Shown here piece by piece: positions 59,664 through 60,871 of a stretch of DNA of 64,000 bases (position 1 is its first letter; every line of letters starts with the position of its first letter). Below the pieces are notes generated by a model. The model saw nothing but the letters and a program-made list of their open reading frames with translations. It ran no database searches and was not told the DNA's origin. Origin of the DNA: Bradyrhizobium elkanii USDA 76 (GTDB lineage: Bacteria; Pseudomonadota; Alphaproteobacteria; Rhizobiales; Xanthobacteraceae). The stretch lies in the NCBI RefSeq assembly GCF_023278185.1, contig NZ_CP066356.1:4580001-4644000 (forward strand), read 5' to 3'. The translations under genes were made by a program, and so were the position numbers.

Positions 59664-59769
59664 ACCGTCGTCCCGGCGAAGGCCGGGACCCATCACCACC
59701 GGATTTGATCAGGAACGGGATCGTGGCCCCGGCGTCGCGCAACAATTGAGATTTGGGGTAATGGGTCCC
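59664..59769. repeat. Compound palindromic repeat, left part, interrupted by the IS110 element
   Basis: Arm GTCGTCCCGGCGAAGGCCGG begins at 59667; the middle part carries GGGGCC-like, CAACAATTG and ends in ATGGGTCCC at 59761-59769. The continuation CGGCCTTCGCCGGGACGAC is found after the element, from 60878. Reverse complement of this unit matches 4708-4915. Confidence 0.8.
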
Positions 59770-59929
59770 TGTGTCTTGGAAGTGTGTCAGGATGAGGGTG
59801 GGCGGGAAGCCGTTGGGTCCTTGGCGCTTGACGCCGTGAGCCGGCTCGGTCTCCCGCCCGTTCCATCTATCAACCTGAACAGTTGCACGAGGCTGCACCA
59901 ACAGACCTCGCATCACAGGGACAGGCACC
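59770..59929 (+). ncRNA. Probable bridge RNA of the IS110 element
   Basis: The leader folds into two hairpins. The first has stem GGGCGGGA/TCCCGCCC (59800-59807 with 59852-59859). Its loop holds TGGGTCC (59814-59820), identical to the left target half, and GCCGG (59840-59844), complementary to the right half CCGGC. The second, around stem CGAGG/CCTCG (59888-59892 with 59906-59910), holds AACAGTTGC (59878-59886), identical to the element's right end at 60870-60878. It also holds CACAGG (59914-59919), complementary to the left end CCTGTG. This is the guide layout described for IS621. The transcript ends are not known. Confidence 0.75.
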
Positions 59930-60871
59930 GTGATCATAGCTCTTCGTTACGTCGGAATCGACATCTCCAAGAAACACCTCGATATCTTTGATGAGGCTGA
60001 CGGCGTGCCGAGGCGCATTGCCAACGCGACACAGGCCATCACACAGCAGGTGGCGCGTTGGCAATGCGATGCGCTGGTGGTCTTCGAGGCGACGGGTATC
60101 TATGACCTCGCGCTTCGCGAGGCGCTGCGTCAGGCCGGGATCCAGTTCGCACGGATCAACCCGGCCCGTGCCCGCGACTTTGCACGGGCCAGCGGCCTAC
60201 TCGCCAAGACCGATCCGATCGATGCGCGGATGCTGGCGGCCTTTGCGCGGGCCATGCAGCCCGCCCCCGAGCAGGTCGCCGATCCTGCACGGGGCGCCTT
60301 GGCGAGGCTTGCAAAACGGCGGGATCAGCTGGTCCTCATGCGCGCCCAGGAGAAGAACCGGCGCAGCGAGGCCGACGATCGCGCCATGGCCGAACGCATC
60401 GGCCGCCTCATCGAGGTCCTCGACAGCGAGATCGCCGAGATCGAGGCCGACATCAGCGCATTGATTAAAGCCGAAGCGCAGATCGCGGACGATGCGAAGT
60501 TAATGCGTTCGCTGCCCGGCGTGGGTCCCGTGGCCTGCATGCAGCTCATCGCGCAGATGCCGGAACTCGGGCGGGTCGGACCGAAACAACTCGCAGCGCT
60601 CGCTGGCCTTGCTCCCTTCAACGTCGACAGCGGCACCTTCCGCGGCAAGCGCAAGATTGCGGGCGGCCGAAAGCGCGTTCGTGACGCCCTTTATATGGCG
60701 GCCCTCAACGCAGTTCGCAGAGCTGATCCGTTCAAGGCCTTCTATGCACGACTGCGACAGGCCGGAAAACCAGCCAAACTCGCCCTCATCGCCGTCGCCA
60801 GGAAGCTGCTCACGGTCCTCAATGCCATGATGCGAGACCGAAAGCCGTACCTGCAGACCAAACCAACATAA
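59930..60871 (+). CDS. IS110-family recombinase (DEDD RuvC-like plus Ser domain)
   Basis: A 313-residue intact transposase, GTG start. The RuvC-like domain has all four acids: Asp11 (VGIDISK), Glu53 (VFEATG), Asp95 and Asp98 (KTDPIDAR). A coiled-coil region (about 130-185) leads to the C-terminal Tnp domain with the catalytic Ser234 in [13 protein letters not shown]. In IS621-type proteins these two sites act together under a bridge RNA. All key residues are present, so it is probably active. Confidence 0.95.

Follow-up and report, generated by a model that had tools for sequence, protein, structure and literature searches.

The window, a stretch of 64,000 nucleotides from a 9.5-Mb Bradyrhizobium genome, contains an insertion sequence whose features are listed in Table 1. 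Its recombinase ORF encodes 313 aa from a GTG start. The domains PF01548 (DEDD_Tnp_IS110) and PF02371 (Transposase_20) were detected in the protein, which fits NF033542, the NCBI model for IS110 RNA-guided transposases, and is homologous to the recombinases of IS621 (8wt6, E 4.3e-37) and ISCro4 (9t56, E 1.8e-34). When it was aligned by eye with IS621, using the catalytic residue numbering of PMC11208158, the catalytic D, E, D, and D residues plus the Ser were present. The core lies 162 nt ahead of the start codon, and just 6 nt follow the stop codon before the right core begins; as in the IS110 group, a long non-coding left end is combined with a short right end. The IS1111-type layout, in which the bridge RNA lies in a long right end, was absent, the right end being 6 nt and the RNA lying in the left end. 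Six complete, near-identical copies were found in the same genome (protein 99-100%, without internal stops), and the named records that contain close relatives of the element (82-95% identity across the part matched) belong to Bradyrhizobium. A 34-bp exact left-end remnant was also observed in the same TGGGTCC target elsewhere in the genome (L007:1569-1602, near C1:4374600). No other piece of the element was found beside it in the 3.1-kb locus, and it is probably a seventh copy that decayed or was deleted.

Table 1. Positions of the element's features in the window, with the evidence for each
Feature	Position	Strand	Evidence
Left target half-site TGGGTC (host repeat DNA)	59762..59767	+	In uninterrupted repeats; 6/6 own-genome copies
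Left end with bridge RNA gene	59768..59929	+	Covariance model R1, 133.3 bits
Left core copy CC	59768..59769	+	Own-genome copy junctions compared with empty repeats
Right donor TGTG	59770..59773	+	Pairs, with core, to right donor guide
Predicted -10 box CAGGAT	59788..59793	+	Circle-junction promoter; consensus scoring of rebuilt junctions
Target-binding stem-loop	59800..59859	+	Outer stem 59800-59805/59854-59859, inner hairpin 59822-59826/59832-59836; consensus fold, pair counts
Left target guide TTGGGTCCT	59813..59821	+	59814-59820 identical to target; 59821 U would make a G-U pair
Right target guide GAGCCGG	59838..59844	+	GCCGG complementary to CCGGC
Predicted target-loop handshake base C	59845	+	Pairs G before donor core; by analogy with IS621
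Left donor guide AACAGTTGC	59878..59886	+	Identical to 60870-60878
Donor-loop inner hairpin	59888..59910	+	59888-59895/59902-59910; compensatory UA to CG at one pair, 8/25 leaders
Right donor guide CACAGG	59914..59919	+	Complement of CCTGTG; CATAGG in L284
Predicted donor-loop handshake base G	59920	+	Pairs C before target core
IS110 recombinase	59930..60871	+	PF01548, PF02371, NF033542; IS621 chain 8wt6, E 4.3e-37
Left donor AACAGTTG at right end	60870..60877	+	Read directly; overlaps stop codon
Right core copy CC	60878..60879	+	Own-genome junctions, empty repeats
Right target half-site GGC (host repeat DNA)	60880..60882	+	Read directly; uninterrupted repeats

The first-pass annotation had read the leader as a bridge RNA with guides for both the target and the element's own ends, and every coordinate it gave was correct on direct reading. 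TGGGTCC is present at 59762-59768, where it comprises the left flank and the first core base, and again at 59814-59820. GCCGG is complementary to CCGGC at 60878-60882, the nine-base string AACAGTTGC occurs both in the leader and at the right end, and CACAGG is complementary to CCTGTG at 59768-59773. The predicted order was likewise borne out, the left and right target guides (LTG, RTG) and the left and right donor guides (LDG, RDG) standing in the bridge-RNA order LTG, RTG, LDG, RDG. Short strings of this kind are common, GCCGG being found in 5504 of 20000 shuffles, and the target is abundant: the ten-base TGGGTCCCGG has 170 exact occurrences in the genome against 21 for a reversed control string. 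Both observations favor an ordinary structured 5′ untranslated region whose matches to the flanks and ends arose by chance or were derived from the repeat. However, all four guide strings in order were obtained in none of 20000 dinucleotide-preserving shuffles of the leader, and any three in 23 of 20000.

The proposed two-hairpin fold was examined next. Across 25 aligned leaders, the two stem-loops were paired in 97.7% of cells compared with a shuffled mean of 93.6, changes on both sides of a pair were observed in 26 cells compared with 7.5, and all six slid registers scored lower for pairing, double changes, and covariation. On the other hand, the single-sequence fold of the leader showed a modest gain (z -2.24; 2 of 200 shuffles folded as well), and further pair types, one of five measures, were not raised, numbering 11 where the shuffled mean was 12.4 and one slid register gave 13. 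If the element's first bases are folded along with the leader, CCTGTG pairs with CACAGG; the donor DNA is here matched to the guide that reads it, CCTGTG lying upstream of the predicted transcript. Covariance model R1 was trained on 9 leaders of 48-57% identical relatives, with the window's own group excluded, and it found the left end with an E value of 6.3e-34, the runner-up in 64 kb reaching 12.5 bits. Recognition of the leader by a model built independently of it argues against an ordinary untranslated region. An Rfam search of the whole window returned no bridge RNA, the single gathering match being an unrelated riboswitch, and the IS stretch yielded nothing beyond an sX15 match below threshold on the opposite strand. 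The riboswitch is of the ZMP/ZTP type (RF01750, 68.1 bits) at 62671-62756 on the reverse strand, just upstream of the reverse-strand ORF 61364-62635, whose product we take to resemble glycine/serine hydroxymethyltransferase.

The insertion sites were then compared. Each of the six own-genome copies, which have identical target guides, interrupts a variant of one palindromic repeat, with the junctions TGGGTC-CC / CC-GG. A search of 60 genus genomes gave no site-spanning match beyond the own genome, the best matches reaching only the downstream gene; because no orthologous uninterrupted locus was found, empty paralogous repeats were used for comparison. Twelve repeat stretches were fetched (L037-L048), six of which contain eight exact uninterrupted targets; seven of these read TGGGTCCCGGC[CT]TTCGCCGGGACGAC, and the eighth (L048) diverges downstream. 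At 70 unique sites of elements with 74-100% identity (group A), the positions of TGGGTC-CC-GG carried 1.71-2.00 bits and the remaining 22 scored positions at most 1.02 bits. This footprint consists of the bases read by the left guide (59814-59820) and by the core-proximal part of the right guide, and these guide-matched bases are what the group-A sites have in common, although they fall in repeats of several types and in a few sequences of other kinds.

Among the matches listed, the target repeat was often seen as an inverted pair approximately 80 bp apart, resembling REP dimers. The window itself contains repeats at 59672-59693 and from 59761 on, and the IS sits in the second unit. The repeat looks like one of the CGTC-class palindromes of alphaproteobacteria; in a survey from 2013, only a few transposase associations, judged fortuitous, were described for that class (PMC3733652). 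A separate set of about 40% identical, CT-core IS110 elements (L182-L198, in genomes G229, G241, and G071) targets a TCATC-CT-GAGG repeat with matching guides. As that repeat is a different one, several IS110 lineages of a single genus differ in the palindromic repeat that they use.

Relatives were gathered from genus, family, genome contigs, and plasmids; a portion of the listed matches was fetched, and several 40% groups were sampled at 3 to 6 copies per genome. From a starting set of 204 loci, 21 with partial reading frames were excluded, 27 were unparsed, and 156 were parsed, giving 136 unique sites. Ends and guides were parsed by rules drawn by eye from the flanking scaffold and later revised, which accept only sites with CC or CT at each end and a right guide that finishes in GG or AG. 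Viral contigs yielded no relatives of the element, matches in phage records (26 of 50,697) were all below 60% identity, and one more element (L284) came from a search across the class (385 genomes, E 1e-68). Some relatives of 42-44% identity with one TGA inside the aligned region were seen among the matches listed, with three copies in G135 (L133), three in G381 (L230), and one in G363 (L233).

Unchanged guide loops beside different targets had been named beforehand as the finding that would speak against a bridge RNA. In 38 guide lineages (136 sites) spanning 37-100% protein identity, the outcome favored the bridge RNA: the fit of guides to their own targets was far better than to swapped targets, and in most lineages a changed guide was accompanied by a correspondingly changed target. 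The match scores exclude the core bases, and the left-guide score permits three registers, equally for real and for permuted pairs. Non-core matches between LTG and left target were 211 of 266, compared with 162.1 (sd 6.5) when permuted within core type, and those between RTG and right target were 167 of 190, compared with 97.6 (sd 9.5); neither value was equaled in 10000 permutations, counts that are not independent probabilities given that the lineages are kin. For example, LTG TTGGATCCC goes with target ATGGATCCC in L228, LTG TTGGGCCCC with target GGGCCCC at 3 of 4 sites, and guide TCGGAATCC with target GGAATCC in L247 and L249, while in L224 both the RTG complement and the target read CCCGCCT. 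Opposite target position +3, an RTG with T met an A in 12 of 13 cases, whereas an RTG with G met an A in 13 of 68 (Fisher p 8e-7). The match is imperfect at this position, since GAGCCGG specifies C, yet besides those A residues G was found in 7 of 68 targets (guides with G there pooled). That guides follow targets over 38 lineages contradicts an ordinary untranslated region, a reading to which we give next to no credence.

The donor side behaved similarly. The seven-base LDG was identical to the right end at 135 of 136 sites, the exception being L249 with a right end one base off its guide, and the two differ jointly between groups (ACAGTTG, ACAGTCG, ACAGCCG, ATGGTTG, and ACGGTTG). The RDG showed a 6-nt complement to the left end at 81 of 82 CC-type sites; L284 has left end CCTATG and RDG CATAGG in place of CCTGTG and CACAGG. 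Fifteen of the 27 unparsed loci, all distant, were looked at a second time, and a right-end match to the donor guide was present in nine and absent in six; the match in L099 falls inside the extrapolated ORF end. Several single sites departed from their guides. Left-half mismatches of at least one base despite unchanged guides were found in L080, L121, L126, L163, and L246, and only 0 of 5 and 2 of 5 non-core right-target bases were matched in L141 and L054, respectively, both of which fit on the left. The L086 insertion, which involves a close relative and lies at the same site as L128 in a metagenome assembly, fits its guides poorly and has two C rather than three at the left junction, suggesting an off-target insertion, later mutation, or an assembly error.

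A second explanation is that the recombinase protein itself reads the repeat and that the likeness of leader and target reflects co-adaptation within lineages, for example in regulation. The sites are mostly palindromic repeats, whose shape an enzyme could recognize, and guides are nearly constant within group A, as this explanation would have it. However, recombinases with 74-100% identity use the several repeat types and other sequences described above, which share the guide-matched bases, and guide and target changes co-occur base by base. The homologue IS621, whose structures have been solved, is moreover RNA-guided (PMC11208160, PMC11208158). We therefore regard target choice by the protein as very improbable, and prefer choice by the RNA; the leader encodes an IS110 bridge RNA, which is an already known kind, and judged from its sequence the guide would work in the element.

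Next, the exchange core was analyzed. The first-pass annotation had proposed CC, which agrees with the uninterrupted repeats, and CC stands at both ends in all six own copies, so that the CT core with near-invariant T of the IS621 type was found in none of them. The target in the window reads CCC, leaving a one-base ambiguity on the target side, and the LTG carries CU opposite the target CC; a core that is truly CT-like or a single C, with CC as an artefact of register, would account for both. However, target and donor share CC alone in L247, L249, and L284, by which the register is settled. Furthermore, right target and donor guides end in GG in the CC kind and in AG in the CT kind. A register artefact is thus improbable, and we retain the CC core. 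At the 82 CC sites, LTG position 1 was unlike the target in 81, and the second core base could pair only as G-U in 66.

Among the parsed sites, recombinases with 48-100% identity were all of the CC kind and those with 37-44% all of the CT kind, although CC in all 82 follows in part from how the parsing rules were constructed. L284, at 44% identity, is a CC element as read by eye; L286-L288 have CT cores by eye, and L286-L289 (44-47% identical) were left out of the counts. In a tree of 53 of 72 proteins after thinning, from which L284 was excluded and for which a long-branch warning applies, the CC group fell on one side of a branch with support 100/99, with two CT groups apart. CC may be derived from CT.

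The second core base of IS621 and related orthologues is an almost invariant T contacted by the G63 amide (PMC11208158). IS621 prefers CT, and cores GT, AT, and TT have been shown to work, all retaining T (PMC11208158, PMC11208160). The term CC core is absent from the main text of PMC11208160, and no description of such a core was found in the running text of the literature searched. The protein stretch just after the EATG motif touches the core in IS621. Here G63 is conserved; the residues after EATG are IYD in this element and TYM in IS621. CC proteins mostly read G[VIH]YD, compared with GG[FY]E in the CT groups, GTYM in IS621, and STYM in ISCro4. A tie between these residues and core choice is only suggestive, because CC had a single origin and IS621 is unlike the CT groups. 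One clade of IS110 recombinases may exchange at CC where its relatives use CT, with the target core, the donor core, the core-pairing bases of the RTG and RDG, and the stretch after EATG differing together, and we hold this reading in even balance with its negation, our confidence having been lowered because IS621 lacks the residues of the CT groups after EATG.

Two further elements of the IS621 mechanism were considered. In IS621, strand exchange is followed by pairing between the base after the RDG and the one that precedes the target core (PMC11208158). The corresponding predicted donor-loop pair was Watson-Crick at 125 of 135 sites and G-U at 10 of 135, with no mismatch (one of 136 sites was unscored), and L247 and L249 have A opposite T where the target T replaces C. 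This pairing is supportive rather than strong, because most sites are invariant; for the target-loop handshake, the opposite donor base is invariant here and hence uninformative. A promoter formed only in the circle is predicted by analogy with IS621. The predicted -35 box TTGCCT would span the right end, core, and left end, with a 17-bp spacer to the -10 box CAGGAT, which is CATGAT in many relatives. Its score is weak: the window circle reached 7.0, another pair at the left junction of the integrated element scored 6.5, and a different pair scored best in 4 of 27 distinct CC circle junctions.

Taken together, we are highly confident that this is an IS110-group element with a bridge RNA that guides the choice of target and donor, and with exchange at CC. 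The guides, targets, donor ends, core, RNA fold, and their co-variation are all read from the DNA, and from them we infer transcription, an RNP, a circle, and recombination catalysis. A bridge RNA would be made from the ~160-nt leader, mainly off a promoter formed upon circle closure. Of its two loops, the first would pair with the target TGGGTC-CC-GG(C) in the abundant palindromic repeat and the second with the joined ends AACAGTTG-CC-TGTG, in each case on both strands. At the shared CC core, strands would then be swapped by the recombinase (DEDD RuvC plus Ser-Tnp), and this would give a single landing orientation and a core at both ends.

This arrangement resembles that of IS621 from E. coli (structures 8WT6-8WT9) in its DEDD RuvC and Tnp domains, left-end non-coding RNA, guide order, short core at both ends, targets in palindromic repeats, and circle-junction promoter, the last only predicted here (PMC11208160, PMC11208158), and the handshake bases fit as well. 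It differs from IS621 in the CC rather than CT core, in the residues after EATG, in an RTG of up to 7 nt, and in the TGGGTCCCGG repeat as target. The upstream non-coding seekRNA of ISEc21, also of the IS110 type, similarly matches both target strands (PMC11187229); it is described as a 74-nt RNA with target matches, a donor loop not being described in the parts of that source consulted, and natural redirection has been reported for its relative ISMch6 (PMC11187229). ISMno7, the annotated name of a 46% identical element in Methylobacterium nodulans, has the same layout, with LDG ACAGCCG equal to its own right end, but unlike our element it has a CT core, and it differs in its ends and targets; our rules left its right target guide unparsed.

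Among the relatives, guides and targets changed jointly across 38 lineages, forming a natural series that is readable from genomes alone. The unusual feature here is the CC core, and the CC-core clade deserves follow-up. If the reading of this clade is true, the core would be an evolvable, perhaps engineerable, element of bridge recombination, and a CC recombinase would widen the sites addressable by bridge editing.
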